Below are positions 3,383 to 63,336 of a DNA stretch of 64,000 nucleotides, one piece after another; the first letter of the stretch is position 1; the number at the start of each line of letters is the position of its first letter. A program made the position numbers and the translations under genes. Below the pieces are notes generated by a model. It had not been told where the DNA came from and ran no database searches. It saw only the letters and a program-made list of their open reading frames with translations. Location: positions 62,001 to 126,000 of the IMG/VR virus record IMGVR_UViG_3300045970_000382; one strand, written 5' to 3'. Origin of the DNA: a virus.

Positions 3383-3393
3383 AGGGGATTAAT

Positions 3394-3594
3394 ATGTTAG
3401 ATTATCAACAAAGAGTTATTGATGAAAAAATAGAATTAGATGAAAAACTTGAAAAATTATTGATTTTTATTTCTTCTGATTTTTTTTCTAAAACAATATC
3501 TTTTGAAGAACAAATTAGATTAAGAAAACAGTCTGTAAGTATGACAGCATATTCAGAAATTTTAGCAGAAAGAATAGAAGCATTTAGTCTTTAA
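3394..3594 (+). CDS. Small hypothetical protein (66 aa)
   Basis: Sixty-six residues, mostly helical and charged (DEKIELDEKLEKLLIF, then FEEQIRLRKQSVSMTAYSE), preceded by the good RBS AGGGGATTAAT. It sits between two virion genes. Such small helical proteins in tail operons can be chaperones or phage 'DUF' proteins with an LRxQ pattern (LRKQ here), but no family can be named with confidence. Confidence 0.6.
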   Translation: MLDYQQRVIDEKIELDEKLEKLLIFISSDFFSKTISFEEQIRLRKQSVSMTAYSEILAERIEAFSL

Positions 3595-3600
3595 TATCTT

Positions 3601-5247
3601 ATGCGTATATATTTCGGTTTTGGATGGATTCATACTCCAGATGTAATAGCCAGTTTTACAGGTGGACTTATTCAGAAAAGTTGGCATTTAGATTTAATTT
3701 GTAAAAGGGATTATTTAAATAATTTATATCTAGGTGGTGCTTTTTCTGAAAGTGGTAAAAATGTAGCTATTTATATTTTAAGTACAGGTATAACATTTAG
3801 TTCTAAAACTCTTAAAAATAGAGTTTTTCAACTTTATGGTAACGAAGATATTGATGGTCATGGAACTGCATTGGCTTCTATAGTGGCAGGTGTTCAGTAT
3901 GGTATTGCACGTTCTGCTCATGTTTATGGTCTTACTTTAGATTATGCTAATTTAAGAACTTCTTTAGATGCTGCTATTACTGTAGTTTTAAATCATATTG
4001 CTAATGGAACTAATAAAGCTGTAGTATTATTAGATGCTTTAGAAGTTCCTGAAGAGTCTAATAATTTTAGATTTACCAGTGATTCTGATAATGCTCTTAC
4101 TCTTAGTGTGCAAAGATTATTAGATTTAAACATAACGACAATTGCTTGTGCAAAATCAGGTTACTATAATAAAGGTAATTGGCTAGGAAATTTGAATTTG
4201 GATTTTCTTCCACCAATCAGTACTACAGACGTTATGTCTTTTGTTGGTTTTGATAATAGATTTATTCATTATCTTTATTGCAATTATGGAGCATCAGCTT
4301 TCTTATATGCTCCATGTTGTATGATTGTTGTAGAATCTTTACAAGGTATTTTGTATTATGATTCTCATGCAGATTATGCTTCAGCTATTGGTACAGGTAT
4401 TGCTGCATTATGCCTATCAAAAAATCCACATTGGGGGCATAAACAAGTAAAAGCCTTTCTTAAAAGAATTTGTAGAACTAAAAAAATAAATAACAGTAGG
4501 TCTTATGGTTATGATGCTATTGTTGGTATGGATAGAGATTTTGTGTTAGATAAACAAGGGCATATTATTGTTTATACTTATCCTAATTTTACAATGTTGA
4601 CCAGTGATTCTGTTAATGCTTATTTTATTAAAAATCTGTTAGAATTTAATTCAGATGCAGATCTTGGAGAATTTAATAGTAACCAAACTATCTCTATATC
4701 TTTTGATGTAATTTGTAAGTCTTTTTATGAAGAAAATAAACCTTATCTTTTAAAGATACTTTCTAGTGACTGTGCTTTTTTAAAAATAGATTCAGCTAAT
4801 AAACTCTATGGTTTTGTACCTGTTCATAAAACAGATATTTCATACAGTATTATTTTAGGAATAAGTAATGGTGTTAATGCTCTTTCAAAGACTTTGATTT
4901 TTAAAATAAAGACCACGGTGACTCAAAGTAAGGTAGCGGCTGTTAAAGTTATTGTAAAAGAAAAGAATTGGTTAGATTTTAATTTAGTATATAAAGAACA
5001 TGAGAAATATAATTTAGTTGAGACGCAATTTCATTTAAAGACTTCTATTACTAGACCTGTCAGTAGAGAAGTAGGATTTTATGACCATGTTTCAGGTCAT
5101 TATTCTAATTCAATAAAATCTTCTCCTAATACAGGGGATGCTTTCGTTGATACTAAGTCAGATAGATTGTATGCTATAATAGCAGAAGATAAAAAAGATA
5201 GATTAATATCTGATTCTAAAATAATAAGTAGGATAGATCCGCAATGA
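3601..5247 (+). CDS. Subtilase (proteinase K)-like virion protein, catalytically degenerate
   Basis: A 548-residue protein whose first 280 residues follow the proteinase K/S8 fold: WHLDLICKRDYL (28-39), VAIYILSTGI (55-64), DGHGTALASIVAG (85-97), ASAIGTGIAAL (260-270). The His (H87) and the Ser position (S261) are kept. The catalytic Asp of the DTG motif is Ser (S61), and the oxyanion Asn motif AAGN reads AKSG (184-187). The C-terminal half is unrecognised and beta-rich. It lies among tail genes and its stop overlaps the next start by 4 bases, so it is probably a structural protein built on a protease fold. Confidence 0.7.
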   Translation: MRIYFGFGWIHTPDVIASFTGGLIQKSWHLDLICKRDYLNNLYLGGAFSESGKNVAIYILSTGITFSSKTLKNRVFQLYGNEDIDGHGTALASIVAGVQYGIARSAHVYGLTLDYANLRTSLDAAITVVLNHIANGTNKAVVLLDALEVPEESNNFRFTSDSDNALTLSVQRLLDLNITTIACAKSGYYNKGNWLGNLNLDFLPPISTTDVMSFVGFDNRFIHYLYCNYGASAFLYAPCCMIVVESLQGILYYDSHADYASAIGTGIAALCLSKNPHWGHKQVKAFLKRICRTKKINNSRSYGYDAIVGMDRDFVLDKQGHIIVYTYPNFTMLTSDSVNAYFIKNLLEFNSDADLGEFNSNQTISISFDVICKSFYEENKPYLLKILSSDCAFLKIDSANKLYGFVPVHKTDISYSIILGISNGVNALSKTLIFKIKTTVTQSKVAAVKVIVKEKNWLDFNLVYKEHEKYNLVETQFHLKTSITRPVSREVGFYDHVSGHYSNSIKSSPNTGDAFVDTKSDRLYAIIAEDKKDRLISDSKIISRIDPQ

Positions 5248-26720: not shown

Positions 26721-26898
26721 TAATTTTTTCAATTAGTGTCATTTCAAGATCATCAAAATAAATCTTTAGATTACTTTCATTAATAACTATTTTTAAATTG
26801 TGATACTTCCCATCATTAAAAATCCAACGTTCTATAGTTTCTGAAACTGTATAAGAATAGGGTTCCAAATCTTCGTTAGTATCTTTAATCATTTTCAT
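26713..26898 (-). CDS. Small hypothetical protein (61 aa)
   Basis: Sixty-one residues, acidic at the start (DTNEDLEPYSYTVSETIERW) with a beta-rich second half (NLKIVINESNLKIYFDDLEM). Its start overlaps the end of the first AP2-type homing-like gene by 14 bases. No family recognised. Confidence 0.5.
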   Translation of the reverse strand: MKMIKDTNEDLEPYSYTVSETIERWIFNDGKYHNLKIVINESNLKIYFDDLEMTLIEKINV

Positions 26899-27622
26899 CT
26901 ACCACATAATTCATCATAGCTTCATAAATATCTGGATCTATGACATCTTTATAGAAATTAGCCAGTCTTTTAGCTTCAGCTTCTTTAGCAGGTTTATAAA
27001 CTAGATATGCTTCTTGTTCTGTTTTGTAACAACCAAGATATTTTTGTCTTCCTTCAATATTACATACAGCCATATATGGATTTATTTTACAATCTGGATA
27101 ATAAGTAACTCCAATACAACATTCACCTCTACCAGCATCACATTTTACTAAAAAGGAATTTACTTCTCGTGGTACTAGTCGGCATGTTTCTGGTGAATAA
27201 ATTTTATTGCCTTTAATAAGGCAATCTTTATCTATAAACCAATTTAAATCTGAGCCTACCATTAATAAATAATCATGAGCAAAGTTTTGAAAATTCTTCC
27301 ATCTTTCACAAACAGTGCAGTTTCTGTAAGTAGGATGTAAATTTTTATAATCTTCGTTATAACATCTTCTCAACATGTCACTCCAAACCATATAAATTCT
27401 TCTATGCGTTTTTTGGGAATAAATTCCAATTCCAATAAAACCAATCCCACAAACATTAGGATGGTTTGGATTCTTAACATTACCATTTCTTAAATTACCC
27501 GCGGTGCAATACGTTTCAGATCCATTTTCAAATATAACTCTTACGTTGCGAGCAGAATTATATTCTAAAACAGTGCAAAACCCAGATCTAGTTGTTTCAA
27601 AAACATCGCCTACTTTTATCAT
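26885..27622 (-). CDS. AP2/HNH-like homing-type protein, copy 1
   Basis: A 245-residue protein of a three-part family that has seven copies in this window. It has an N-terminal SH3/KOW-like beta domain (IKVGDVFETTRSGFCTVLEY), a central nuclease-like domain (MVWSDMLRRCY...TVCERWKNFQNFAHDY...NKIYSPETCRLVPREVN) and a C-terminal AP2-type DNA-binding domain (IGVTYYPD...GCYKTEQEAYLVYK). The SPETC..VP..N motif resembles HNH_3, but I do not see a standard catalytic His. Such genes are often annotated as HNH or homing endonucleases in phages. Its ATG overlaps the SNF2 helicase stop (ATGA). Confidence 0.75.
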   Translation of the reverse strand: MIKVGDVFETTRSGFCTVLEYNSARNVRVIFENGSETYCTAGNLRNGNVKNPNHPNVCGIGFIGIGIYSQKTHRRIYMVWSDMLRRCYNEDYKNLHPTYRNCTVCERWKNFQNFAHDYLLMVGSDLNWFIDKDCLIKGNKIYSPETCRLVPREVNSFLVKCDAGRGECCIGVTYYPDCKINPYMAVCNIEGRQKYLGCYKTEQEAYLVYKPAKEAEAKRLANFYKDVIDPDIYEAMMNYVVDEND

Positions 27623-31478: not shown

Positions 31479-32516
31479 TTATTCACCTTTAAAAAGTTTT
31501 AAACCTATATCAAGTAAACTACCTGATATTTTTTCAGTCTGTGCAAATTTTAATAATACATCTTTTGATGATAAAGATTTTATATTTGATTTTATATAAT
31601 CCTTTATTTCATCCGATGCTTTTGTTTCAACTATTTTTTCCATACGGATATCGTGGAGTTCAATAGCATTATCTTTACAGTAATTAATAGTCTGTGCTTT
31701 TAATTCTGCCCACTTATGAATAAGATTTCTATCTAACAATAATGTTATTTTAACCTGATCTTCTTTTTTTAATTTCTTTAAGTCAACTAACAAATCATCA
31801 AAAGAATTAACTTCCTTTTTTATATGAGGTCTTTTTATTGTTTTAATATCTATAAATCTTAATTTACCATCTTCAATAACAGACATTCGTGGCTGGTAAT
31901 CATCCCCGAATGACACGGGGTGCTGGGTGCCAGGATAATTTACTTTTCGTAATGTTTGAGGAACGTGAATATCACCACTTACTATCTTAGCTGATACATT
32001 TTTAAAAAAGTTTGGATCAAGACCACAGTTGAGTTCATGAAAATTAGATACTTTTGATCCAATAATAGATTGGTGTATGAACAAAAATTTTAAATTTGGA
32101 TCATTTATTATTGGTAGCCACTCTTCCCATTCAATTTCAGCAACTCTACTATGTGGAAGAAATAAAAACTGATCTCTTTTCCAATATGTTGGTTTATCTA
32201 TAAATGTTATGTTTTCGTACTTGGATACGAAACGTAAGAAACAGTGATTTCGGTCTACTGTATAGTCGTGGTTGCCTCCCAGTATGGATATAGGGCAGTA
32301 CTTGTCTCTAATTTCAAGGAACGAGTTGACAGTTCTATTAACCAACTGGGACTTATGCTTATCCTTCCTATCTAAAACATCCCCAAGGTGTAGGAAAAGA
32401 TCATATCCACCTTTATCTAATTCAGCCTTAGCGAAATCAAATACCTTCCAACGATACTCATTACTTGGATTATCGTCGAGGTGCGTATCATTGATAATAA
32501 GAATTTTTCTAGTCAT
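31479..32516 (-). CDS. SbcD/Mre11-like metallophosphatase nuclease
   Basis: A 345-residue protein with phosphoesterase motifs INDTHLDD (8-15), HLGDVLDRKDKH (43-54), GGNHDYTVD (80-88), FIHQSI and SGDIHVPQ. It corresponds to T4 gp47 and bacterial SbcD, nucleases that process DNA ends with a Rad50-type ATPase. No SbcC/gp46 homologue is in the window. It overlaps the upstream AP2-type gene by 8 bases. Confidence 0.85.
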   Translation of the reverse strand: MTRKILIINDTHLDDNPSNEYRWKVFDFAKAELDKGGYDLFLHLGDVLDRKDKHKSQLVNRTVNSFLEIRDKYCPISILGGNHDYTVDRNHCFLRFVSKYENITFIDKPTYWKRDQFLFLPHSRVAEIEWEEWLPIINDPNLKFLFIHQSIIGSKVSNFHELNCGLDPNFFKNVSAKIVSGDIHVPQTLRKVNYPGTQHPVSFGDDYQPRMSVIEDGKLRFIDIKTIKRPHIKKEVNSFDDLLVDLKKLKKEDQVKITLLLDRNLIHKWAELKAQTINYCKDNAIELHDIRMEKIVETKASDEIKDYIKSNIKSLSSKDVLLKFAQTEKISGSLLDIGLKLFKGE

Positions 32517-33252
32517 TAATATCCACCTTATAATTTATCATTGCTGATAGTATATCTGGATCTATTGTATCCTTAAATACATTTGCTAGTCTTTTAGCTT
32601 CAGCCTCTTTAGCGGCTTTATAAGCTAAATAAGCTTCTTGTTGTGTTTTAAAATAACCAAGATGTTCTTGTTTTCCTTTAATCCTGCAACTAGCCCTATA
32701 TGGTGTTGATGTACCTTCATAATAATTGACTCCAATACAACACTCACCTCTACTAGCATTACTTTTTTCTAAAAAATTATTCACTTCTTGTGGTACTAAA
32801 CGACATGTTTCTGGTGAATAGATTTTATTACCTTTAATAAGCCAATCTTTGTCCAGTTGGTAATTTAAATCAGAACCAAACATGAGTAAGTAATCATGAG
32901 CGAAGTTTTGAAAACACAACCATCTTTCACAAACAGTACAATCTTTATAAGTAAGTTGTTTTTTCTGTGTAAATTCTGAATAACATCTTCGTAACATAGC
33001 AAGCCAACAATTATAAATTCTTAGATGCGACGTACAAGAATAATTTCCAATTCCAATAAATCCAATTCCATAAAATTTAAGACTTGGGTATTTAACATAA
33101 CCATTTCTTAAAGCACCAGCTTCACAAGTCGTTTCAGCCCCATCTTCAAATCTGACTCTTACATTGTGAGCATTTATATACTCTATAACAATGCAAGAGC
33201 CAGATTTGTTTGTTTTAAAGGCGTCACCAACTTTAATAGAAGGTAAAAGCAT
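32509..33252 (-). CDS. AP2/HNH-like homing-type protein, copy 2
   Basis: A 247-residue member with all three domains: IKVGDAFKTNKSGSCIVIEY, NCWLAMLRRCYSEF...NKIYSPETCRLVPQEVN, and a C-terminal IGVNYYEGTSTPYRASC...GYFKTQQEAYLAYK. It is closest in wording to copies 1 and 7. It sits precisely between the DUF932-like gene (TAATG overlap) and the SbcD/Mre11-like gene (8-base overlap), so it was inserted without disturbing either reading frame. Confidence 0.75.
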   Translation of the reverse strand: MLLPSIKVGDAFKTNKSGSCIVIEYINAHNVRVRFEDGAETTCEAGALRNGYVKYPSLKFYGIGFIGIGNYSCTSHLRIYNCWLAMLRRCYSEFTQKKQLTYKDCTVCERWLCFQNFAHDYLLMFGSDLNYQLDKDWLIKGNKIYSPETCRLVPQEVNNFLEKSNASRGECCIGVNYYEGTSTPYRASCRIKGKQEHLGYFKTQQEAYLAYKAAKEAEAKRLANVFKDTIDPDILSAMINYKVDIND

Positions 33253-38721: not shown

Positions 38722-41307
38722 TTATAAATATTCACGATAAAAATCGTAATTTTCGTGTAATTTAGTAGGTACAGAACAAAACTCAGTAGAAGTAAAAACA
38801 TCAATCTGCTCCTGTTCATACCAATTTTTTCCATAACTCATTTCGCAAGTTAAAGGTATATTTAACCATGGGTAGGAAGAAGTATCTAGCATTAACTCTG
38901 CAACCAATAAACATGATTCTTCTAATTTAGAATCTTCAACATAGCATGTTAAATCATCATGGATCATCATAACTATTTCTAGTCCAGAATCACACAATTT
39001 ATTCATAGCATTAACACAAAGTCTAGCAGCTAGACTTTGTATTGGAGTGTTAATTATTTCATTGAATGATAGAGGCCCATGTCTACGATGACCTAACATA
39101 CTTTCAACATAACCATATTTTTTATAAAATCCAACTAACCAGTTCTGCCATTTTTTTATACCATGAAAAACTTCCCAAAATTCTTCATTAATAGGTATTA
39201 AAATATCTATAGGTATATTTAAACCTTTAGCAATATTATAAACAGATGCTCCATAAAATTGTGGGAAAGTCCATTGGTTTTTAATTTCGTTACGAAACTT
39301 CTTAATGGCTTTGGGATCATTTAAAAATTCTATACCTCCTACTGCTTGTGGATATGCTTTGGCAATTTTTTTGCACCATTCTAAATGCACATCATAATCT
39401 TCCCAAACCATTTTACAAAAGACAGGATCTTGGGATGCTACAGCAATAAGACGTGCTTCAATTTGACCATAATCTGCACAGACCATCCAATGCTCTTCTG
39501 GTGCTTTTATGATACGTCTAATTTCTTTACCTTTACGATTTGGGAAGTTTTGGAGATTTGGGTTTTGAGAAGAAATCCGACCTGTACTAGTAAATAGATG
39601 ACTAAATTGAGTATGAATCTTTTTATCTATAGTGTCACTGTGCTTAAAAATAGGATCAATATAAGTGCCTTTCTTTTTAGTTAATGTTCTATTTTCAAGT
39701 AACAGTTTTCCAATTGGATGTGTTATTCTTGCTAAGACGGATTCATCTGCTGACTCTTTTCCTATAAAGAATGATTTATCAAGATTACAGAAATTTTTAA
39801 TAAAGACTAATACTTGGGCGGGAGAATCATAGTTAAATACTTTATATCTAGTTTCGTACTTCTTAACGTCAGGCAGTTCTTTTATTTGATTATGAATCTT
39901 ATCTAATTTTTCACTAAGATCATTAAAGATTTCTAAAGTGGCTTCTTCATCAGGAACAACTCCGTTAATTTGTGTAAGTACTAGAGTAGCACTTGATCTT
40001 TTTAGATCATTGTAAGGTTTTAACATTCCTATTTCTTTTAGAATCTCAAGCTGTTTTTTATATAGCGAGTAAGTCCATTTAACATCTAGACCATTATAAG
40101 GAAGTATTTGTTTTAAAGAGTGTTTTTCTAAATCAGTTCTATCTAAATTTGATATAATCTTTAAATTGAATCCAAAGTATTGTCTTATCAAAAAATCTAA
40201 TGAATGAGTCCGCATCAACTCATTGATGCAGTAAGCCTGTGCCTGAGAACATTCCCATTTGTTCCAATCTTTTAATATCTCCTTACCGAAAATTACTCCA
40301 AGCCACTCTTGCTCGAACTTACTATTATGGGCCACTAGTTTTTTAACATTTAAGAAAAACTCTTTAAGACGGTTATGTAAAGATTTAAATTGCTTGCTAT
40401 TCCAAGTTCCTTCTCTGTACTGATAAGGGAATGCAACGGTATGTTCAAATGTCCCAATAGATATGGAAAGTATTCTTGAATCCGGTTGGTAAGGACTCAA
40501 TTGATTCGTTTCAATATCTAACGAAACTATATCTAGCTTTTCAAAATTATCTAGCCACTTAAACACGGTTTTAAGATTTTCATCTGTGGGAAGTTCAACC
40601 CATTCAATACCCAAAGTTAATTCTGATTTTTTAGGTATCCATGGAGGATTGTAAGAATTTAAAAAATTATCTAATTCATCAATATGACTTTGAAAATATC
40701 CATCCCATTCACTTGTTTGGGTGTATGAACTACCATCTTTCTTTCTTCTTTCCCTATGCTTGCTCATTATAAAAGCTGGATCATGGATTGGATATAGCCA
40801 ACATCCATATGTGTCTATTTTTACAGGAATAAACTTACCGGCATATAATCTTTCTCCACCTTCTAATCCAAACCAAACTAAGGCAGAAGTCCCTACAGCT
40901 ATAATTATTTTAGGTCTGGATTCAAGAATATCTTTCTCTATTCGTAATCTACAACATGTTAGTTCTAATTCGTTTTCATCTTTCTTAGAATAGCAATTGA
41001 GTATAGAATTAAAACGCGATCTATCAAAAACATCTTGTGTTAGTTTTTCTAGAAGAAACTCTATTGAATCTCCTTCTAAGTAGGATCCTATTTCATCTTG
41101 AATCCGTGTCATCTTAGGAAGTAAAAAATAAAAATCTGGATTTTTCACACCTTCAGCATCTAGTTTAGGAGACTTTAATTTAGCTCTATTCAGAGGACAA
41201 ATTTTACATCCAAGTGCTCTAGCAGAATGGATCGGCATCTTTTTCGAGATGGTTTTGTTGTTTTTGGTATCATCAAAAAAAAAGGACACTTTAATCTCCG
41301 ATATCAA
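38722..41307 (-). CDS. DNA polymerase I-family polymerase fused to an N-terminal UDG-like domain
   Basis: An 861-residue protein. Residues 30-220 look like a family-4/5 uracil-DNA glycosylase: C34-x2-C37 and C105...C118/119 as probable Fe-S ligands, IIIAVGTSALVWFG, and YPIHDPAFI. A DEDDy 3'-5' exonuclease follows (LDIET at 263-267, NSKFEQEWLG), then the palm: motif A VCADYGQIEARL (D612), motif B R672...FYG, motif C MIHDDL (H783, D784). There is no 5'-nuclease domain; a separate FEN is at 30624. Phage SPO1 polymerase has a similar UDG-like front end. Confidence 0.88.
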   Translation of the reverse strand: MISEIKVSFFFDDTKNNKTISKKMPIHSARALGCKICPLNRAKLKSPKLDAEGVKNPDFYFLLPKMTRIQDEIGSYLEGDSIEFLLEKLTQDVFDRSRFNSILNCYSKKDENELELTCCRLRIEKDILESRPKIIIAVGTSALVWFGLEGGERLYAGKFIPVKIDTYGCWLYPIHDPAFIMSKHRERRKKDGSSYTQTSEWDGYFQSHIDELDNFLNSYNPPWIPKKSELTLGIEWVELPTDENLKTVFKWLDNFEKLDIVSLDIETNQLSPYQPDSRILSISIGTFEHTVAFPYQYREGTWNSKQFKSLHNRLKEFFLNVKKLVAHNSKFEQEWLGVIFGKEILKDWNKWECSQAQAYCINELMRTHSLDFLIRQYFGFNLKIISNLDRTDLEKHSLKQILPYNGLDVKWTYSLYKKQLEILKEIGMLKPYNDLKRSSATLVLTQINGVVPDEEATLEIFNDLSEKLDKIHNQIKELPDVKKYETRYKVFNYDSPAQVLVFIKNFCNLDKSFFIGKESADESVLARITHPIGKLLLENRTLTKKKGTYIDPIFKHSDTIDKKIHTQFSHLFTSTGRISSQNPNLQNFPNRKGKEIRRIIKAPEEHWMVCADYGQIEARLIAVASQDPVFCKMVWEDYDVHLEWCKKIAKAYPQAVGGIEFLNDPKAIKKFRNEIKNQWTFPQFYGASVYNIAKGLNIPIDILIPINEEFWEVFHGIKKWQNWLVGFYKKYGYVESMLGHRRHGPLSFNEIINTPIQSLAARLCVNAMNKLCDSGLEIVMMIHDDLTCYVEDSKLEESCLLVAELMLDTSSYPWLNIPLTCEMSYGKNWYEQEQIDVFTSTEFCSVPTKLHENYDFYREYL

Positions 41308-42022
41308 CGGTGCGATTCATTAGAGCTATATAAGCTCTTGGATCTATAGTATCTTTATAAACATTGGCTAGTCTTTTAAATTCAGCCTCTTTAGCTACTT
41401 TATAAACTTGTCTAGCTTCTTTTTCTGTTTTATAAGATCCAAGACGTTTTAATCTTCCTTCAATATGACATCTAGCCACATACGGATTTGGCTTACCTTC
41501 AACATAAGTAACTCCGAGGATACGTTCACCTCTACTAGAATCACCTTTTTCTAAAACATAATTTATTTGTGGTGGAACTAAACAACATGTTTCCGGTGAA
41601 TATATCTTATTTCCTTTAATAAGCCAATCTTTGTCCAGTTGGTAATTTAAATCTGAACCCACCATTTGTAAATAATCATGGCAAAAGTTTTGAAAATTAA
41701 ACCATCTTTCATCTACAGTACAACCACGATAAGTAGGCCGTTTTAATTGAGCAGCTTCGTGATAACATCTTTTTAACATATAAATCCAACAATAATAAAT
41801 TCTTGGATGTGATGTACAAGAATACTCCCCAATACCAATAAATCCAATACCAAAAAATTTAAGTTTTGGGTTTTTAACTCTACCATTTCTTAACTGACCC
41901 GCTTGACAAATTTTTTCAGTTCCATCTTCAAATCTGACTCTTACGTTAATAGCAGAATTATACTTTATAACAGTACAAAAACCAGATGTATTCGTTTCAA
42001 ACCTATCTCCAACTTTAATCAT
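41291..42022 (-). CDS. AP2/HNH-like homing-type protein, copy 3
   Basis: A 243-residue copy with IKVGDRFETNTSGFCTVIKY, YCWIYMLKRCYHEA...NKIYSPETCCLVPPQIN and a C-terminal LGVTYVEGKPNPYVARC...GSYKTEKEARQVYK. It differs from the others in RGERILGV and in ending MNRTVDIGD. It is placed between the beta clamp (15-base gap) and the polymerase, whose start it overlaps by 17 bases. Confidence 0.75.
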   Translation of the reverse strand: MIKVGDRFETNTSGFCTVIKYNSAINVRVRFEDGTEKICQAGQLRNGRVKNPKLKFFGIGFIGIGEYSCTSHPRIYYCWIYMLKRCYHEAAQLKRPTYRGCTVDERWFNFQNFCHDYLQMVGSDLNYQLDKDWLIKGNKIYSPETCCLVPPQINYVLEKGDSSRGERILGVTYVEGKPNPYVARCHIEGRLKRLGSYKTEKEARQVYKVAKEAEFKRLANVYKDTIDPRAYIALMNRTVDIGD

Positions 42023-44742: not shown

Positions 44743-45342
44743 TCAGCACGTTGTTTTAGTTGAATTTTTACAGGTTTTATCGTGTACTTCATAATTCATT
44801 AAAACAATATAAACTCTTGAATCAAGATTCTTTTTATACATACGAGTTACTCTTTTTATTTCAGCTTCTTTAGCATTTTTATAAGCTAAAAATGCCAATT
44901 CAATTGTTGGAAAATGACCTAATGATTTATTCTTTTTATTAATGTAACAAAGAGCCCTATAAGGGCTCTTTGTTCTATTTGACCAAGATACTCCAATTGG
45001 AAGATTATTATTTTTACTCTTATAACATGTCATAATGCAGTTCAGTTCTTGGGGCAGTAATACACACGTATCTTTACTATAGATTTTATTATCTTTAATA
45101 AGAATATCTTTGTCAAGTTGCCAATTTAAATTAGAACCATTCATAGCTAGATAATCATGACAAAAATTTTGAAAATTATGCCATCTTTCATCTACTGTAC
45201 AACCAATGTAACTCTGTTGTTTATCTTGAACCTTTTTAACATAACATCTAAAGAGCATTGTACTCCAAGTAAAATAGATTCGTCTATGAGACACCGACGA
45301 ATATTGGCCTTCTCCAAGAATACCTACACCATGTGCTGCCAT
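44743..45342 (-). CDS. AP2/HNH-like homing-type protein, copy 4 (N-terminally shortened)
   Basis: A 199-residue copy that lacks the SH3-like N-terminal domain and starts near the GVGILGEGQYSS segment. The central domain (YFTWSTMLFRCYVKK...NKIYSKDTCVLLPQELN) and the AP2-like end (IGVSWSNRTKSPYRALC...GHFPTIELAFLAYK) remain, and the C-terminus carries an extra tail KTCKNSTKTTC. It diverges most from the others. It is either a decaying copy or a shorter functional form. It is 3 bases from the ligase gene. Confidence 0.7.
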   Translation of the reverse strand: MAAHGVGILGEGQYSSVSHRRIYFTWSTMLFRCYVKKVQDKQQSYIGCTVDERWHNFQNFCHDYLAMNGSNLNWQLDKDILIKDNKIYSKDTCVLLPQELNCIMTCYKSKNNNLPIGVSWSNRTKSPYRALCYINKKNKSLGHFPTIELAFLAYKNAKEAEIKRVTRMYKKNLDSRVYIVLMNYEVHDKTCKNSTKTTC

Positions 45343-46543: not shown

Positions 46544-47278
46544 TTAATCATTAAATTCTACTACACGATTCATTAAAGCAACATATACTCTTGATTCTAA
46601 TAAATTTTTGTAAAAATTAGCCAGTCTTTTAAATTCAGTTTCTTTAGCTACTTTATAAGTTAGATATGCTTCTTGTTCTGTTTTGTAAGAACCAAGATAT
46701 TTATATTTTCCTTTAATACTACATTGAGCTATATATGGATTTATATAACGTTCATCATAAGTAACTCCAATACGAAATTCACCTCTATTAGCATTACATT
46801 TTTCTAAAACATTATTTATCTCTTGTGGTACTAAACAACATGTTTCTGGTGAATAGATTTTATTACCTTTAAATAATATATCTTTATCCAATTGCCAATT
46901 TAAATCTGAAATCATCATTAGTAAATAATCGTGACAAAAATTTTGAAAGTTCCACCATCTTTCACAAACAATACATCCAATATAAGATTGTTGTCTTGAT
47001 TGAGTTTCTAAATCATAACACCTTCGTAACATTTGAAACCAAACCATATAAATTCTTGGATGTGATGTACGAGAATAATTTCCTACGCCAATATAACCAA
47101 TTCCAGAAATACTAGGATGATTTGGATTTTTAACATGACCTCCTCTTAAATTACTTGCTTGACAAATTATTTCAAATCCATTTTCAAATCTAACTTTCAC
47201 ATTTCTTGAATCTATAAATTCTATAACAGTACAAGATCCATAATTATCCGTTTTAAAAACATCTCCAATTTTAATCAT
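46544..47278 (-). CDS. AP2/HNH-like homing-type protein, copy 5
   Basis: A 244-residue copy with IKIGDVFKTDNYGSCTVIEF, MVWFQMLRRCYDLE...NKIYSPETCCLVPQEIN and IGVTYDERYINPYIAQC...GSYKTEQEAYLTYK. It shares RGEFRIGV with copy 6. Its ATG overlaps the upstream 73-residue gene by 8 bases, and its stop lies upstream of the ligase promoter. Confidence 0.75.
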   Translation of the reverse strand: MIKIGDVFKTDNYGSCTVIEFIDSRNVKVRFENGFEIICQASNLRGGHVKNPNHPSISGIGYIGVGNYSRTSHPRIYMVWFQMLRRCYDLETQSRQQSYIGCIVCERWWNFQNFCHDYLLMMISDLNWQLDKDILFKGNKIYSPETCCLVPQEINNVLEKCNANRGEFRIGVTYDERYINPYIAQCSIKGKYKYLGSYKTEQEAYLTYKVAKETEFKRLANFYKNLLESRVYVALMNRVVEFND

Positions 47279-52062: not shown

Positions 52063-52797
52063 TCAGTCATCAATATCGACTACGCGATTCATTAGTATTG
52101 TATATATTTCAGGATCTAAATCATCTTTAAATAAATTACCTAACCTTTTAAATTCAGCTTCTTTAGCTGCTTTATAGGCTAGCCTAGCTTCTTCTTCTGT
52201 TTTGTAACTACCAAGGTACTTTAATTTTCCTTCAACGTTACAAGCAGCTTTGTATGGATTTGTTTTACTACCAGAAGGAGAAACTCCAATACGAAATTCA
52301 CCTCTACTAGCATCACTTTTTTCTAAAACAGTGTTTATCTGAGGTGGAACTAAGCAACAAGTTTCTGGTGAATATAGCTTGTTTCCTTTAATACGAAGAT
52401 CTTTGTCTATTTGCCAAAATAAAGCAGATCCAAACATTGATAAGTAATCAGGAGCAAAATTCTGAAAATTCCACCAACGTTCACATACAGTACAAGCACT
52501 ATAAGTAGGCCATACACCTCTAATAGTTTCATTATAACATCTTCGTAACATCTGAATCCAACAATTATAAATTCTTGGATATAATTTACAAGAATAATTT
52601 CCAACTCCAATAAATGCAATACCATAAATAATTGGATGATTTAGATTCTTAACCTGACCATTTCTTAAAGCGCCAGCATTACAAATTTTTTCAGTCCCAT
52701 CTTTAAATCTAATTTTTACATTGTTATAATCTATATATTCCATAACAGTGCAATTACCAGATTTATTTGTTTTGAATACATCACCTATTTTAATCAT
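52063..52797 (-). CDS. AP2/HNH-like homing-type protein, copy 6
   Basis: A 244-residue copy with IKIGDVFKTNKSGNCTVMEY, NCWIQMLRRCYNET...NKLYSPETCCLVPPQIN and IGVSPSGSKTNPYKAAC...GSYKTEEEARLAYK. Its ATG overlaps the stop of the C-terminal helicase piece (ATGA). It is followed by the 100-bp repeat element. Confidence 0.75.
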   Translation of the reverse strand: MIKIGDVFKTNKSGNCTVMEYIDYNNVKIRFKDGTEKICNAGALRNGQVKNLNHPIIYGIAFIGVGNYSCKLYPRIYNCWIQMLRRCYNETIRGVWPTYSACTVCERWWNFQNFAPDYLSMFGSALFWQIDKDLRIKGNKLYSPETCCLVPPQINTVLEKSDASRGEFRIGVSPSGSKTNPYKAACNVEGKLKYLGSYKTEEEARLAYKAAKEAEFKRLGNLFKDDLDPEIYTILMNRVVDIDD

Positions 52798-53927
52798 GCT
52801 GTCTCCTTTATTAAAGCTTTTGCCTGTGTTACTACTTTTGGTGCAAGAGTTTTACCAAGGAGTTGTATAACTTTGTCTTTGTTTTCAACTATATCTTCTA
52901 AAGTTTTTATTCCAGCAGCATCCAACTTCTTGGCTTTCACTATTCCAATTCCATCTAACGAAACTAATTCGGCTAGACCGGCTCTGACACCATGTTTTAC
53001 ACGGAGTGCAATAATAGTTAGTTCTTTAGAACTCTCCCAACCAAATAATCCATTCATCCACGTTAATGCTCCAATTATTCTATCAATATCAGATCGTAAT
53101 TGTCGTGAGTAAATATGGATTCCTTCTTGTTCAGTTAGAACATCATATAAATCTGCAGCAATAGTACTTTTAGTTATAGATTTTGATACTAGTTGAGGAA
53201 TTGTATCTAAAACAGCTTCAGAATAATTCTCAACGAATTCTATATCTTTAGCAGCTATATAACCAGCCTGCATACTTGGAGTTGTTCCAAGAGTATAGGA
53301 AATAGCCAAATCACTAGACCAGAGATTATGATTATAGATATTCATAAAATTCATATACCAATGAAAAACATCTCTTGGATAAAAATAAAGAGTAGCACTT
53401 ATTTTACCTAACGAAGTAATCTTAAACACACCAGTATCTGTAAGTGTTAACATTCTTATTTTAATAAGATCAGCTAATACTTGATCTATAAACCCATCTT
53501 CTAATTTTAACTGAATAGCTGCCAATGATCTTAAAAACCAATGTCTTAGTGTTTCCCTATTCCAAACCTCACCATTGGATATTTCAGCCAGTACATGAAA
53601 TCCTAAAATGTCACTGTTAATCAAAGTAGATATGATATTTCGTGGATTATTTATTTTATATTGCCATGAAGAAACATTATCACAGATAAAATAACAACGA
53701 CCTATATCAGACCAACCTAAACGACCACAACGTCCAGCAGCCTGCAATATATCTAATTCATCTATTTGACTAAGACCACGTGTGTTACCTACAATAATAA
53801 CATTGGTAGCACAGGTGTTGCAGTTATGTGTTAAGATTTTATTAGCAAAAAAGTTATGGTTCTTTTCTACAGATAAGTCTATATGGATATTTTCTGATTT
53901 TCGCTTCACAATAGATGTTATTTTCAT
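52794..53927 (-). CDS. C-terminal helicase piece headed by a C-intein half (IntC)
   Basis: A 377-residue protein. Residues 1-35 are an intein C-terminal fragment (block F/G: HIDLSVEKNHNFFANKILTH then Asn35), followed by Cys36 as the +1 extein residue. The extein continues CNTCATNVIIVGNTRGLSQI, then ILQAAGRCGRLGWSDIGRCY (helicase motif VI), a winged-helix/ratchet-like region and a helix-hairpin-helix near the end (LVSLDGIGIVKAKKLDAAGI). Trans-splicing with the product of 54803-57952 would restore the Ski2/Hel308-like helicase. Confidence 0.88.
   Translation of the reverse strand: MKITSIVKRKSENIHIDLSVEKNHNFFANKILTHNCNTCATNVIIVGNTRGLSQIDELDILQAAGRCGRLGWSDIGRCYFICDNVSSWQYKINNPRNIISTLINSDILGFHVLAEISNGEVWNRETLRHWFLRSLAAIQLKLEDGFIDQVLADLIKIRMLTLTDTGVFKITSLGKISATLYFYPRDVFHWYMNFMNIYNHNLWSSDLAISYTLGTTPSMQAGYIAAKDIEFVENYSEAVLDTIPQLVSKSITKSTIAADLYDVLTEQEGIHIYSRQLRSDIDRIIGALTWMNGLFGWESSKELTIIALRVKHGVRAGLAELVSLDGIGIVKAKKLDAAGIKTLEDIVENKDKVIQLLGKTLAPKVVTQAKALIKETA
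53823..53927 (-). other. Split intein, C-terminal half (IntC)
   Basis: Thirty-five residues ending HN followed by Cys. Blocks F and G of the Hint fold are clear (DLSVEKNHNFFANKILTHN). It needs the N-terminal half at 54806-55111 for splicing in trans. Confidence 0.88.
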
Positions 53928-54771
53928 AATTTTTTAATATTTTTTTAATTTCAATTTGGAATTTATTAAGAACAGCTTGTGGAGAATCTTTCCTATAATT
54001 AAAAGGAATTCTTATAACATGCCATCCTAATGATTGTAAAAATAAATCTTTTCTATTATCACTTTCTATTTTTTCAGGACTTGAGTGACATATATCTGAA
54101 TCTATTTCAATAGCAATTTTAAATTCAAGAATAGCAAAATCTATACAATATCCTCTATGACATTTACCATTATTATCAGGTTCAGGATAATTAAAATCTA
54201 TTTTAAAAGGTAATTTAATAATGTTTATCCAAGAAATTATTTTCTTTTCAAATTTACTAGGCTCTTGATACATACCAAGATAATGCCAAGCTGTATGTTC
54301 ACGTTGAAGTTTTTTTGATTCTTCAGTATGTTTTTTCCCATAAAAATGATTATCTTTACCTGATTCATTTTCATTTTTTACACGTCTTGGGAATGTTGGA
54401 GTATTTTGATAATGGGCTTTCATTGTCTTGCTTATCTGTTGTTTTGTTTCATTTGTTTGTGCAGGTCTTAATGCAAAAGATGCTTTCATTTTTAATGAAA
54501 ATTCTTCTGTTTTCCAAAGTTCTTTATTTTGTAAATTACGCTCTTTAACTTTGTCAGGATTAGCTTTGCAATAGGCTTTTGAAGTTTCTCTTTTATTATC
54601 TTTCCATTTTTGACTAACTAAAGGAGCGTTAGGATATTTAACTTTGTATTCAGTTAATTTATATCCATGCGTAAAAAATAAATGTCCATTAGTTATTTGT
54701 TTACATTGTTTACCACATTCTCTACAAGAGATTGTTTCATATGTATCATTTTCAAACATTAGCTTCACCAT
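53854..54771 (-). CDS. Free-standing homing endonuclease (Vsr-like, NUMOD3)
   Basis: A 305-residue protein inserted between the two halves of the split helicase. The N-terminus has a zinc-finger-like segment (CRECGKQCKQI...LFFTHGYKLTEYKVKYPNAP). The middle has NUMOD3-type DNA-binding text (FYGKKHTEESKKLQREH). The C-terminus is a Vsr/EDxHD-type nuclease: YCIDFAILEFKIAIEIDSDI then CHSS, followed by RKDLFLQSLGWHVIRIPF. This matches the endonuclease family reported with fractured genes (I-Bth0305I type). It overlaps the IntC-helicase start by 74 bases in another frame. Confidence 0.85.
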   Translation of the reverse strand: MVKLMFENDTYETISCRECGKQCKQITNGHLFFTHGYKLTEYKVKYPNAPLVSQKWKDNKRETSKAYCKANPDKVKERNLQNKELWKTEEFSLKMKASFALRPAQTNETKQQISKTMKAHYQNTPTFPRRVKNENESGKDNHFYGKKHTEESKKLQREHTAWHYLGMYQEPSKFEKKIISWINIIKLPFKIDFNYPEPDNNGKCHRGYCIDFAILEFKIAIEIDSDICHSSPEKIESDNRKDLFLQSLGWHVIRIPFNYRKDSPQAVLNKFQIEIKKILKNYENNIYCEAKIRKYPYRLICRKEP

Positions 54772-54802
54772 TAGCTTACCTTAGGATTAGCTTACATTAA
54801 CA

Positions 54803-57800
54803 TTAACTAAAATCAGTGTCAAGATTAAACAAATCTTCTTCCCCTGTAAGATTTTGTGCTTCAATTATTGAAAAAGAATTATCTTTATTTTTACAATAAA
54901 AAGGATGTTTTCTATCTACAATTATTGTTTTTCCATTTTCTAATGTAATAACAAACTCATTAATAGGTCCATATTCTAAGACATTAAGAATATTATCTTG
55001 TTCTAAATATCCTTGTTCATTCCAAGATAAAATTTCATCATTGATTTTAATATCTTTAGCTAATTTTTCTGTCCCATTAGACATAGTTACTAATGTATCT
55101 TTTGATACAGAACCCCATGCCAAACCGCTGGTGGAAATTAATACTTGTAAAGATTCTTTAGTATTTTCAGCAAAATCTTCTAAAAATTGTGTTCGGGAAC
55201 TCATTTCTAAATCAGCATTATAAAATAAACAATCAATTTCTTGATCTTTAAATTTAGATTCAAGCATCCGTCCAGTATTTTTATCATGTACGAAGATTAG
55301 TGTTTTCTCATTTGGATTTTTATAATAACATTCAAGAGCTAGATTCAATTTATCTTGCTGTTGGTCAGCATATCTTAAAGATGTGTCATATTCTAATAAA
55401 TTCCATTGAATAACAGTGGGTCTCCAATTATTATTTATTACTTCTGTCGGTTTACCGTTTAGTGTTGTAAGCCAAGTCTTAAATTCAGATACATTTGGCA
55501 TAGTAGCAGATAGCATCAATATCTTAGCTGATGGTACTAACTTTGAAAATCGCATGATTCCTACTTCAAGTGCATGTCCTCTATTTGTAGTAAGAAGTGA
55601 TGATTCGTCGGTAATTATCAGCCCAATATCAAATAACCAATCTGATTTTTCAGATTTATAATTTCGTGAACGGGAGTTATGTAACATAATTCCACCTTGT
55701 CCGCCAATCCAATTTTGTATTGGGTATGAAACATTTTTAGGTTGTATTTCAAGATCATATACAATATCTTTTCTTAAAAATTCTATACTTTTAATTTTGA
55801 CAAAATGTAAATGTGGATTGAGATTGTTTCTTTGTCTTGGGTTATTTTCATTAATTCGTATATCCCATGTTAAATATTCTTTATCTTTGTATATTCTAGT
55901 ATTTTTTATTACAAAACTAAATCTTCCAACTAATAGTGTTAAATTTTGAATATCTTTAGATAGTTGAAAAGATGCTGTTCTAAAAAGATGTCTATTTTTA
56001 CTTGAGTTATCAAAAAACCCATCACCGCAAAGCATTCCATTTAAAAAGGATTCTATTTTAGATGCTTCCCAAGTAAAAACAAAATCAGGAATAGATTTTT
56101 CACGAGATAATCCACCAAACAAATGTCCTATGTATTGCCATAAAACTGAATTCACATGCAGTGTGTGTATTATTCCACCAATAGGTCTAATATCTGTTTT
56201 TGAAGTAATATTACCACCAAAAACTTTTTGTGCCCGTTCTAAAAATTGTAAGTTGTCATTTTTTTGCTCTATGGTTAATCTTGGGCCACGAACACAGCAT
56301 CCATCAGCAACAAAAAATCCCAATGCCCATGCTAGATCATTGTCAACTTCAATTTTTGCTGGAAATTCTAATTTAGAATGATATGCTTTTACTTTTTTCA
56401 TTTCATTTATATCTAATAAACCTAATCTAAATGAATTTTCAAGTAATATTAATGGGAGATAACCTCGTTTTCTCCAATCATTTATTCTTTGTGTTGTCTT
56501 ACTTAGACGTTCGTTTTCATATTTTATTGATGGGACTGCGCTAATTAAATAAAAATCATTTGAAAAAAGATTTAGTATTTTATCACTTGTGAAAAATGTT
56601 CTAGTTTTATTTACTATAGGTAAATCTAATAACAGTTCAGCAAACGGAATTATAGATTTAGTTGCTAAAGTTTCAAATCCAGTACTTATAGCAACTTGAT
56701 CTTTTTCTATATCAATATCTTTTAATATTTTAGGTATTAGTTTCTTTGTAGTTTTATCTAAGATAAATAAATTATGGCATTCTGTCATTTCAACAGATCT
56801 TCCTCCAATTAAAGATACTTTATAAATATCTTTTGGTTCTATTTTAATTCTTCCAGTTATTTCAGTCGGTAAGATTCCTTTTCCTTCATGGTAAGAAAAT
56901 ACTTCACAATCAATATTATCTTCAACTATGTTACCAATACAGTCTTTCCAAACATTGCCGTTTTTATAACAATAAAGCTCAGTTTCGTATGGATACGAGT
57001 CGGTCATTTCTGATGTACAACAAATAATATCAGCTTCGTTTAGTTCTTTAGCTTTTGTTTCTGTTAGAACAAAGTCTCCAGTTAAAATACATATTTTATA
57101 ATCTTGTCCAAATGATTTAGTCCAGTCGTTAAATTTTTCAAGAGTTAATGCTTTTAATGGTGAGACATAACAAATCTTCTTTTTGTGTACTTTTAATGTT
57201 TCCCAAACAAATAATTCAGCAGATATAGTTTTTCCTGTTGATGTAGCTGTTCCTAATACTAAGTTACAATCTTGATGCCAATAACCGTGTTTTAAAATTG
57301 TGGATTGCACACGATTGAATTGCTTAAATCCATATTTAAAATGTGGAAAATAATTATTTAAATAACAATCTTCAATCTCAACTAAATCTGTCATCATTTC
57401 TTTTGATGCCAAGTCTTTTGTTGGTTTATAAACAGGTTCAATAGAACTTTGTACCGATTTAATTGTCGAATTTAAAGATCTTAAATGATGTTCTGTTTTT
57501 GTACCACAGTTAGGAAATGCAGCACAACCCATGAATTTTACACCTGTAGCTTTAACAGTTCTTTCAACGGTATAAGAACCACATTTTTTACAGAATATAA
57601 TCTCATTAGATATTTTAATCAGATTATTTACTCGAAGAGTTATTCTTTCAAATACAGTAGTGTTACCCTCTGTTCGTAATACTTTAGGTTCCTGACATAT
57701 AATTTTATTTGCAATAGTGTCGTATAAAATGTTACGAATGGCGTCTTCACCAATATCTCTGGTTTTGCCAGTACCATCAACAGTGGTATAGATATGTATT

Positions 57801-57952
57801 TCAAGTGAAGGTTTAGATTTTAAAGTGGCACAGATGACTAACTCTGTTCCTCTCTTTGGAAGTTTAAATTCCCATTTTAAAAAATCGTGTTGAGGAGTAA
57901 AAAAAGTATCTGCCCAGTTTTCAAATTGATCTTTTGTTAGAGCAACAAACAT
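54803..57952 (-). CDS. N-terminal part of a split Ski2/Hel308-like helicase with a full intein and an IntN half
   Basis: A 1049-residue protein. Residues 118-152 hold a zinc ribbon (CKKCGSYTVE...CAAFPNCG). The SF2 helicase domain has Walker A GTATSTGKT (234-242), YVSPLKALTLEKF, TGDFV, CCTSEMTD (312-318), then motif II ITDESS (780-785) and SATMPN. A continuous intein occupies 319-759. After VLISTSGLAWG (937-947) a second, split intein begins (948-1049) and the reading frame ends. The missing C-terminal helicase half is encoded at 52794-53927. Confidence 0.88.
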   Translation of the reverse strand: MFVALTKDQFENWADTFFTPQHDFLKWEFKLPKRGTELVICATLKSKPSLEIHIYTTVDGTGKTRDIGEDAIRNILYDTIANKIICQEPKVLRTEGNTTVFERITLRVNNLIKISNEIIFCKKCGSYTVERTVKATGVKFMGCAAFPNCGTKTEHHLRSLNSTIKSVQSSIEPVYKPTKDLASKEMMTDLVEIEDCYLNNYFPHFKYGFKQFNRVQSTILKHGYWHQDCNLVLGTATSTGKTISAELFVWETLKVHKKKICYVSPLKALTLEKFNDWTKSFGQDYKICILTGDFVLTETKAKELNEADIICCTSEMTDSYPYETELYCYKNGNVWKDCIGNIVEDNIDCEVFSYHEGKGILPTEITGRIKIEPKDIYKVSLIGGRSVEMTECHNLFILDKTTKKLIPKILKDIDIEKDQVAISTGFETLATKSIIPFAELLLDLPIVNKTRTFFTSDKILNLFSNDFYLISAVPSIKYENERLSKTTQRINDWRKRGYLPLILLENSFRLGLLDINEMKKVKAYHSKLEFPAKIEVDNDLAWALGFFVADGCCVRGPRLTIEQKNDNLQFLERAQKVFGGNITSKTDIRPIGGIIHTLHVNSVLWQYIGHLFGGLSREKSIPDFVFTWEASKIESFLNGMLCGDGFFDNSSKNRHLFRTASFQLSKDIQNLTLLVGRFSFVIKNTRIYKDKEYLTWDIRINENNPRQRNNLNPHLHFVKIKSIEFLRKDIVYDLEIQPKNVSYPIQNWIGGQGGIMLHNSRSRNYKSEKSDWLFDIGLIITDESSLLTTNRGHALEVGIMRFSKLVPSAKILMLSATMPNVSEFKTWLTTLNGKPTEVINNNWRPTVIQWNLLEYDTSLRYADQQQDKLNLALECYYKNPNEKTLIFVHDKNTGRMLESKFKDQEIDCLFYNADLEMSSRTQFLEDFAENTKESLQVLISTSGLAWGSVSKDTLVTMSNGTEKLAKDIKINDEILSWNEQGYLEQDNILNVLEYGPINEFVITLENGKTIIVDRKHPFYCKNKDNSFSIIEAQNLTGEEDLFNLDTDFS
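54806..55111 (-). other. Split intein, N-terminal half (IntN)
   Basis: Residues 948-1049 begin Ser-Val-Ser-Lys-Asp-Thr-Leu-Val (the block A pattern CxxxDTxV with Ser1), and contain the block B region (ENGKTIIVDRKHPFYC). They end at the stop codon with no endonuclease. The extein junction would be ...LAWG/CNTCATN..., a continuous helicase motif. Confidence 0.88.
55676..56998 (-). other. Continuous intein with LAGLIDADG endonuclease inside the helicase
   Basis: Residues 319-759 (441 aa) of the 54803-57952 product. It starts SYPYETELYCYKNGNVW and ends YDLEIQPKNVSYP...GGIMLHN, followed by Ser760. It carries two dodecapeptide motifs (WALGFFVADGCC at about 542-553, FLNGMLCGDGFF at about 636-647). 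Removal joins TSEMTD to SRSRNYKSEKSDWL, a normal helicase sequence. Ser1/Asn/Ser+1 chemistry. Confidence 0.88.
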
Positions 57953-57984
57953 GCTTATGCCTTTTATGAATTAATTGGTATTTC

Positions 57985-58013
57985 ATTATATAAAAACTAT
58001 AATAAATAAGCTA
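57985..58013 (-). promoter_or_regulatory. Possible promoter: weak -35, perfect TATAAT
   Basis: Minus strand TATAAT at 57990-57985 with TAGCTT at the -35 position (58013-58008, 17-bp spacer). The -35 is poor, but the region is the only gap (57953-58024) upstream of the helicase gene. Confidence 0.4.
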
Positions 58014-58024
58014 GACTGTATTAA

Positions 58025-59026
58025 TCATTTATTTTGTTGGAATTCTAGATTATGGAGTCGTTCACGGATTAGAGTACAATATTCTGGATTTTTTTCTATA
58101 AGAACGTAATTTCTATTTGTGAATAGACATGCTATTCCTGTTGAACCTGATCCAGCAAAAGGATCTAATACTGTGTCACCTTTTTTTGAAATCATTTTAA
58201 CTAAATGCTCCATTAATTTTAAGGGTTTTACAGTAGGATGTTTATTACTTAAGATTGAATCTAGACCTAAATTTCTTTCACTCTTTACAGATTTTGTTGA
58301 GTAAAAATATCTAGATATTTCAATATTTGGAAAAATAGATAAAACTTCATCTGATTCATCATGCATTACATTTGACGGATATCTTCCTAAATCATTGGGT
58401 ATCCAAGTATCTTTAGGATTTAAATAATAACTTGAAGCATGTTCTCTCCTTTTTTGTTTTGAATTATCTATTTTTACATTATCTACGTCTCCAAATCTAA
58501 CATCATCTATATTAAGTGCTCCTGTTCCCCAACGAACGATGTTCTCTGTTATGGTATGATATAAAAGTGGCTTCCTAGCCAATGTTATAGGTTCAAGTGC
58601 TGGTTTTAAGCAAGAAGCAGAACCTTCCCATTCACCTTTATCATCTAATATCTTATCTATACTTTTACCTAAATTGACTCCTTTTGGAAACCCACTACCA
58701 TATAGCCAAATGAGCATATCTCTTATTTCAAAACCAGCATCTTCAATACGCACAGCCATTCTATGCTGAGTTTTAGTTCCTGAAAAAGATAATAGATGTC
58801 CTCCAGGTTTAAGTACCCGTAAACATTCTTCCCATATATCTTGAGAAGGAACATCATAGTCCCATTTATTACACATAAATGAGATTCCATAAGGCGGATC
58901 TGTTATGATTGCATCAATAGAATTTGAGGCAAAATTCTGCATTTCTAACAAACAATCTCCCTGATAGACTTTGTTAGTCTTAAATCTATTTTTGTAATTA
59001 GATTTTAATTCTTCAAACTTAGACAT
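58025..59026 (-). CDS. Beta-class DNA methyltransferase (N6-adenine or N4-cytosine)
   Basis: A 333-residue protein. Motif IV DPPYGISFMCNKWDYDVPS (43-61) precedes the SAM-binding motif I TVLDPFAGSGSTGIA (about 288-302), the order of the beta class. HPTVKPLKLMEHLVKMIS gives the usual helix before motif I. It methylates an exocyclic amino group of DNA to protect against host restriction or to regulate genes. No cognate restriction enzyme is seen. Target sequence not predictable here. Confidence 0.85.
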   Translation of the reverse strand: MSKFEELKSNYKNRFKTNKVYQGDCLLEMQNFASNSIDAIITDPPYGISFMCNKWDYDVPSQDIWEECLRVLKPGGHLLSFSGTKTQHRMAVRIEDAGFEIRDMLIWLYGSGFPKGVNLGKSIDKILDDKGEWEGSASCLKPALEPITLARKPLLYHTITENIVRWGTGALNIDDVRFGDVDNVKIDNSKQKRREHASSYYLNPKDTWIPNDLGRYPSNVMHDESDEVLSIFPNIEISRYFYSTKSVKSERNLGLDSILSNKHPTVKPLKLMEHLVKMISKKGDTVLDPFAGSGSTGIACLFTNRNYVLIEKNPEYCTLIRERLHNLEFQQNK

Positions 59027-62601: not shown

Positions 62602-63336
62602 TTAGTCGTTTGGTTCGACCACATAATTTATTAAAGCTAAATACACTTTTAGATCTAACTGATCTTTATAAAAGTTTGCTAATCTTCTAATTTCAGCTTC
62701 TTTAGATACTTTATAAGCTAGATATGCTTCTTGTTCTGTTTTGTAATAACCAAGATATTTATTTTTTCCTTTAATACTACATCGAGCTTGATATGGATTT
62801 GGTTTACCTTCATAATAAGTAACTCCAATACAACATTCACCTCTATTAGCATCACGTTTTATTAAAAGTTTATTTATTTCTTGTGGAAGTAAACAACATG
62901 TTTCTGGTGAATATATCTCATTATGTTTAAAAAGTATATCTTTATCTAGTTGCCAATCTAAATCTGATCCAAACATTTGTAAATAATCATGAGCAAAGTT
63001 TTGAAAATTCCACCATCTTTCACAAACAGCACAACCAATATAAGAAGGTTGTTTTAATTGAGTATCTTCGTTATAACATCTTCCTAGCATAGACTTCCAA
63101 CACTTATAAATTCTTAAATGTGTTTTAGGAAAATAAATTCCAATTCCAATAAAACCTATATTACAAACACTAGGATGATTTGGATTTTTAACTAGACCAT
63201 TTCTTAATTGGCTTGCTTGACAAGTTGTTTCAGTCCCATCATCAAATCTGACTCTTACATCATTACAATCTATATACTTTATAACAATACAAGAACCAGA
63301 ACTATTCGTTTCAAATCTGTCACCTACCTTAATCAT
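62602..63336 (-). CDS. AP2/HNH-like homing-type protein, copy 7
   Basis: A 244-residue copy with IKVGDRFETNSSGSCIVIKY, KCWKSMLGRCYNED...NEIYSPETCCLLPQEIN and IGVTYYEGKPNPYQARC...GYYKTEQEAYLAYK. It sits 7 bases from the 87-residue gene and is followed by the 100-bp repeat. It is very close in wording to copies 1 and 2. Confidence 0.75.
   Translation of the reverse strand: MIKVGDRFETNSSGSCIVIKYIDCNDVRVRFDDGTETTCQASQLRNGLVKNPNHPSVCNIGFIGIGIYFPKTHLRIYKCWKSMLGRCYNEDTQLKQPSYIGCAVCERWWNFQNFAHDYLQMFGSDLDWQLDKDILFKHNEIYSPETCCLLPQEINKLLIKRDANRGECCIGVTYYEGKPNPYQARCSIKGKNKYLGYYKTEQEAYLAYKVSKEAEIRRLANFYKDQLDLKVYLALINYVVEPND

Follow-up and report, generated by a model that had tools for sequence, protein, structure and literature searches.

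A helicase of an uncultured phage is very probably encoded as a fractured gene, in two open reading frames (ORFs) whose products would be joined by protein trans-splicing, and the nuclease gene that lies between them most likely homes the entire block. A break at a single codon of motif V (LAWG / CNT) divides the host gene between two ORFs, each ORF carries one half of an intein, and a free-standing putative homing endonuclease gene separates the halves. We infer splicing, cleavage and homing from the anatomy of the locus, its catalytic residues, an intact relative, a fractured ortholog and the incongruence of trees. The locus adds a well-supported case to a known arrangement that has rarely been documented.

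Locus and gene order

The DNA analysed here (the window) is a stretch of 64,000 nucleotides, bases 62001-126000 of the 156,223-bp virus record IMGVR_UViG_3300045970_000382. The same record encodes a terminase large subunit (L035:17046-18563), which indicates a tailed phage. Three minus-strand ORFs run from 57952 to 52794 and encode the N-terminal part of the helicase, the nuclease and the C-terminal part of the helicase, on the strand and in the order given by the original prediction. Their features are as follows.

54803-57952, minus strand: helicase N-part ORF, 1049 aa.
56999..57952, minus strand: helicase N-extein part 1 (aa 1-318), with a zinc-ribbon-like region and motifs Q/I/Ia up to EMTD; matches DEAD (5.6e-16) and Zn_ribbon_Top1 (1.7e-4), and aligns to L044 and LR756511.
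55676..56998, minus strand: contiguous cis intein 1, 441 aa, Ser1...LHN/Ser+1, with a LAGLIDADG endonuclease; matches PF14890 (2e-12) and TIGR01445 (1.2e-7).
55112..55675, minus strand: helicase N-extein part 2, 188 aa, from motif II (DESS) to motif V (...STSGLAWG); matches Helicase_C (1.8e-5).
54806..55111, minus strand: N-terminal intein half (IntN), 102 aa, with Ser1, followed by the stop codon at 54803-54805; matches TIGR01445, PF14890, the IntN of L046 and, by profile, NrdJ-1.
53854-54771, minus strand: nuclease ORF, 305 aa, a putative free-standing homing endonuclease gene with a ROS/MUCR-type zinc finger, NUMOD3 and a C-terminal Vsr/EDxHD-like nuclease.
52794-53927, minus strand: helicase C-part ORF, 377 aa.
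53823..53927, minus strand: C-terminal intein half (IntC), 35 aa, with blocks F/G (VEKNHNFF...LTHN); matches TIGR01443 (27.3 bits).
52797..53822, minus strand: helicase C-extein, 342 aa, from Cys+1 (CNTCATNVIIVG), with motif VI and a C-terminal HhH, followed by the stop codon at 52794-52796; matches PRK01172 (4.7e-23), PRK02362 (2.6e-22), Hel308 (2.9e-17) and HHH_5.

IntC begins before the nuclease ORF has ended, with an overlap of 74 nt (53854-53927). This overlap, a cis intein in the first ORF and a second fractured gene elsewhere in the genome come in addition to the elements named in the original prediction. Overlaps of at least 10 nt occur in 6 of the 65 same-strand neighbour pairs in the window, and the nuclease/IntC pair has the longest; one possible reason is coupling of IntC translation to that of the nuclease. 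A further record, 3300045971_000438, was dropped as an independent replicate, being 100% identical to the window virus over 15 kb.

Split intein halves

After motif V (ISTSGLAWG), the N-terminal part of the helicase continues with 102 residues (SVSKDTLV...DTDFS, aa 948-1049 of the first ORF) and then stops. IntC comprises aa 1-35 of the third ORF and ends VEKNHNFFANKILTHN (ILTHN at its end), directly before Cys+1 and the C-extein with motif VI. Both parts of the original reading stand: the helicase ends mid-motif at LAWG and runs into an N-intein half and a stop codon, and a separate ORF opens with a C-intein half ending HN-C, after which the helicase resumes.

The two proposed halves were compared with hidden Markov models of inteins. 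IntC reaches 27.3 bits with the C-terminal splicing model TIGR01443, against a curated cut-off of 15.6. IntN alone is marginal, at 20.0 bits with TIGR01445 (E 0.001; cut-off 24.5) and 18.2 bits with PF14890 (E 0.0023); its L046 counterpart, which is 54% identical, passes TIGR01445 at 26.5 bits. When 12 IntN halves of fractured genes were combined into a profile and compared with the PDB, the NrdJ-1 intein ranked first (E 1.4e-21). Across fractured genes, IntC has an invariant His and a terminal His-Asn, and motif residues are near-invariant. The halves of natural split inteins usually carry net charges of opposite sign; here the charges are -10 for IntN and +3 for IntC, and in L046 they are -10 and +5.

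Classified by sequence, the window split intein is class 1: it has Ser at position 1, a terminal Asn, HN followed by Cys+1, and Asp at F:4. Block B departs from TxxH, reading DRKH in the window and DKKH in L046, with the His kept and the Thr replaced by Asp. Active inteins that deviate at the block B Thr exist, so DRKH weakens the class assignment slightly and leaves the intein call unaffected.

The helicase and its cis intein

Joined, the exteins would read STSGLAWG-CNTCATN, which rebuilds motif V. The first ORF also contains a contiguous LAGLIDADG intein (aa 319-759, flanked by EMTD and SRSRN) that scores 32.6 bits with TIGR01445, over the cut-off, and matches LAGLIDADG_3 weakly; this intein is missing from the helicase of L044. 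Without both inteins the exteins sum to 318+188+342 = 848 aa, and the reconstructed helicase is 57% identical to the intein-free L044 helicase (852 aa) end to end, gapless at both junctions (the C-extein is 55% identical). Another intein-free homolog, in the 595-kb phage LR756511, reads STLAWG and then LNLPARRVVILG; N-extein part 2 shares 38% identity with it over 215 aa in a local alignment.

The helicase is assigned to PHROG 6819. Its halves score 74.1 and 62.1 bits with the Hel308 equivalog model NF040935, under the cut-off of 1200, and by these matches the protein is a distant Hel308/Ski2-like phage helicase, not Hel308 itself. Motif II reads DESS, as opposed to DESH in L044, owing to which the helicase may be altered.

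The nuclease between the halves

A Vsr-like/NUMOD3 endonuclease had been placed between the halves, and both attributes were recovered. Pfam models identify a ROS/MUCR-type zinc finger, NUMOD3 and DUF559/MTES_1575 in the 305-aa protein. For the AlphaFold2 model (mean pLDDT 67.7; nuclease domain mostly 66-83), the top two PDB folds in Foldseek were Vsr (1vsr; probability 1.00, E 3.1e-3) and I-Bth0305I (3r3p; probability 0.97, E 6.9e-3), both with marginal E values. The protein is a predicted Vsr/EDxHD-type homing endonuclease.

The same site in other phages

Relatives were defined as the 61 IMG/VR loci returned by a scan with the C-extein. The codon after LAWG is empty in 54 of these, holds contiguous inteins in four (L077, L080, L082 and L086, all ending HN/CNLPARR), is fractured in two (the window lineage and L046) and is associated with a bare nuclease in one (L051). 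The intact, insert-free helicase that the original prediction proposed to look for is the common state, with an uninterrupted motif V in 54 of 61 relatives; homologs without the insertion are L044, LR756511 and 53 more. A search with IntN for further fractured helicases returned nothing beyond the window lineage and L046, and a pattern scan confirmed no C-extein relative in GTDB genomes and so pointed to no host. The alleles L049, L050 and L059 have a native Cys at +1 (AWGCNLPARR), which means that the element did not have to bring the +1 nucleophile.

Contiguous inteins also occur at a third site of the helicase, in motif II (DE/C...N/CH), in L066:3751-7053 and L096:3934-7053. The L066 motif II intein contains zinc fingers resembling the C2H2 type, and one segment of it looks like Vsr rather than LAGLIDADG.

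L046 copies the layout of the window. It reads LAWG/AVNEETEI...stop, then encodes a nuclease of 240 aa that shares the domains of the window nuclease, and then M...ILTHN/CNLPARNVVIVG; the fracture falls at the same residue, and IntN, nuclease and IntC are all homologous to those of the window.

In L051, a nuclease ORF alone (2887-3834), without an intein, is inserted three codons away and cuts the orthologous helicase (L051:1247-4825) in motif V. No Rfam intron was recognised in L051, and its helicase is a possible case of genes in pieces. The ribonucleotide reductase (RNR) of L051 is also a fractured gene. Function in two pieces has been reported for a ribonucleotide reductase divided by a homing endonuclease (cited in PMC10448857). 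Phage Aeh1 NrdA is an example of genes in pieces. For the window, the corresponding explanation would be that the halves form a non-covalent complex, with intein remnants that do nothing or merely help assembly. The L051 ortholog, cut at nearly the same place, suggests that a two-piece helicase may be tolerated. However, at around 44% divergence the window and L046 still have matching IntN and IntC halves with their block motifs, along with Cys+1, the terminal His-Asn and the His of block F, whereas inert remnants should decay, and we regard this explanation as unlikely.

Still less probable is a decayed gene or an assembly artefact, in which a homing endonuclease gene landed in an intein and left the helicase dead. 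The DESS in motif II and the restriction to a single virus lineage would fit such a history, but all 848 extein codons are intact and collinear with L044, L046 has the same layout on an independent contig, and the genome of the window virus contains a second fractured gene. Removal of the insert as an RNA intron, with IntN and IntC forming one contiguous intein, has very little to commend it: intron-encoded homing endonucleases are known in phages and a group I intron is present elsewhere in this genome (window 64-346), but no Rfam group I or II intron was found in window 52500-58100, even at E<=1, or in L046 at gathering thresholds; moreover, the IntN half ends with a stop codon of its own, IntC opens with its own ATG, and the adjacent ORFs are in different frames.

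Probable mobility of the element and proposed mechanism

Between the window and L046, identity is 56% for the intein and 48% for the nuclease, against 34% for the C-extein and 41% for the N-extein. In a tree of 44 C-exteins, evaluated with SH-aLRT support and the AU test, the window pairs with the empty L044 (SH-aLRT 100) and L046 with the empty L048 (96); a single clade for both fractured alleles was rejected (p-AU 3.9e-51). An element that is more alike than its hosts and is scattered on the host tree is the pattern that homing produces, and by this comparison the IntN-nuclease-IntC block behaves as a mobile element. The alternative, repeated loss of the element from a common ancestor, would alone leave the higher identity of the element unexplained.

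We propose that the N-precursor, ending in IntN, and the C-precursor, starting with IntC, would associate through their intein halves (-10 and +3), which would fold into one Hint domain. An acyl shift at Ser1, transfer to Cys+1, cyclisation of the Asn in the HN that closes the intein and, last, an S-N shift would then join ...STSGLAWG to CNTCATN... and restore motif V; the LAGLIDADG intein in the N-precursor would also have to excise in cis. The Vsr/EDxHD-type endonuclease would most likely cut intein-less helicase alleles at motif V, and repair at the cut would copy the whole IntN-endonuclease-IntC block during co-infection.

The split intein of L046 (2704-2997 + 3787-3888) has Ala1 (AVNEETEI), HN followed by Cys+1 (CNLPARN), and Asp at F:4. 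With no nucleophile at position 1, Cys+1, and no Cys at F:4 (which would denote class 3), it is formally a class 2 split intein, observed on a single contig. According to PMC7891396 (2020), split inteins of class 2 had not yet been reported and are predicted to exist. We tentatively suggest, as a possibility that we do not favour, that the motif V fracture represents a split-intein lineage that moved toward class 2, in which L046 would supply the first class 2 intein known to be split in nature, and the Ser1 intein of the window would be its sister (with the common block B Asp). Ala1 could also be a sign of a dying intein. The Ser1/Ala1 ortholog pair offers a ready test for natural split class 2 inteins, and both split inteins are candidate tools for protein engineering.

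Other fractured genes, endonuclease-like genes and an intron

The genome of the window virus was searched as 20-kb pieces. A second fractured gene, encoding a class II ribonucleotide reductase (TIGR02505), lies outside the window at G000:C1:10723-15398 (same coordinates in L035). It is split at LLQG/CGVGFS and comprises IntN, a 389-aa free-standing nuclease and IntC, with a cis LAGLIDADG intein downstream. Many of the IMG/VR loci that the IntC motif retrieved are fractured genes, named from their sequences as RNR, dUTPase, clamp-loader or DNA polymerase. In nearly all nuclease-bearing fractured loci (several among L004-L031; exceptions are L007 and L014), IntC starts 10-74 nt before the nuclease ORF ends, an overlap that could couple translation of the C-half to that of the nuclease.

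Two fractured dUTPase-like genes, L018 and L022, have IntN halves without the block B His (PKSKEV and PHEKEV), which may indicate that their split inteins use altered chemistry. The split RNR inteins of L011 and of L012/L013 are nearly identical; a GIY-YIG-like nuclease gene separates the halves in L012/L013 and is absent in L011.

The 156-kb genome also encodes twelve related HNH endonuclease-like genes (PHROG 953), with 46-67% protein identity to the first. Seven are in the window (52063-52797, 62602-63336, 46544-47278, 44794-45333, 41291-42022, 26885-27622 and 32509-33252) and five more are elsewhere in the genome; one copy overlaps the helicase stop by 4 nt. The group I intron at window 64-346 (plus strand; Rfam RF00028, 80 bits) is followed by a 240-aa ORF (554-1276) that resembles an HNH/zinc-finger endonuclease.

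Comparison with known systems

Fractured genes were described by Dassa et al. 2009 (NAR 37:2560), as cited in PMC7891396, PMC12350094 and PMC7090010; PMC12350094 cites the same study for the EDxHD/Vsr class of nuclease. The original prediction had recognised this arrangement, which is therefore not itself new. The fractured genes of Dassa et al. reportedly have, like the window locus, split intein halves on two ORFs, a free-standing Vsr/EDxHD-type nuclease between them, the same order and strand, and a phage DNA-metabolism gene as host. The window locus differs in its host gene, a Hel308/Ski2-like SF2 helicase, in its site, motif V, and in the additional cis LAGLIDADG intein. Our literature search, which had Dassa 2009 itself outside its scope, returned no report of a Hel308/Ski2-like host gene or of this motif V site, and both appear to be new for fractured genes. 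The AceL NrdHF split class 3 intein (PMC7891396) shares the fractured-gene organisation and comes from a metagenomic phage-like contig; unlike the window locus, it has a GIY-YIG nuclease and a class 3 mechanism.

The closest solved intein to the IntN profile, the NrdJ-1 split intein (PDB 8ubs), differs in having an RNR host, another site and low identity to the window IntN. The best single-sequence PDB match of IntN is the gp41-1 split intein (PDB 6qaz; E 0.047), the host of which is the replicative DnaB-type helicase gp41, with a fold and a site other than those of the window helicase. I-Bth0305I (3r3p) and Vsr (1vsr) share the predicted fold of the window nuclease, together with a multi-domain organisation with a zinc finger/NUMOD. 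I-Bth0305I is encoded by a group I intron that interrupts a phage recA gene, whereas the window nuclease is placed between intein halves.

With this locus, the fractured genes come to include a repair-type helicase and a new site. Together with its relatives, the locus provides a natural series around one codon (no insert, a contiguous intein, a fractured intein plus nuclease, a nuclease alone), which makes it testable how genes fracture, and whether the nuclease or the splitting of the intein came first.
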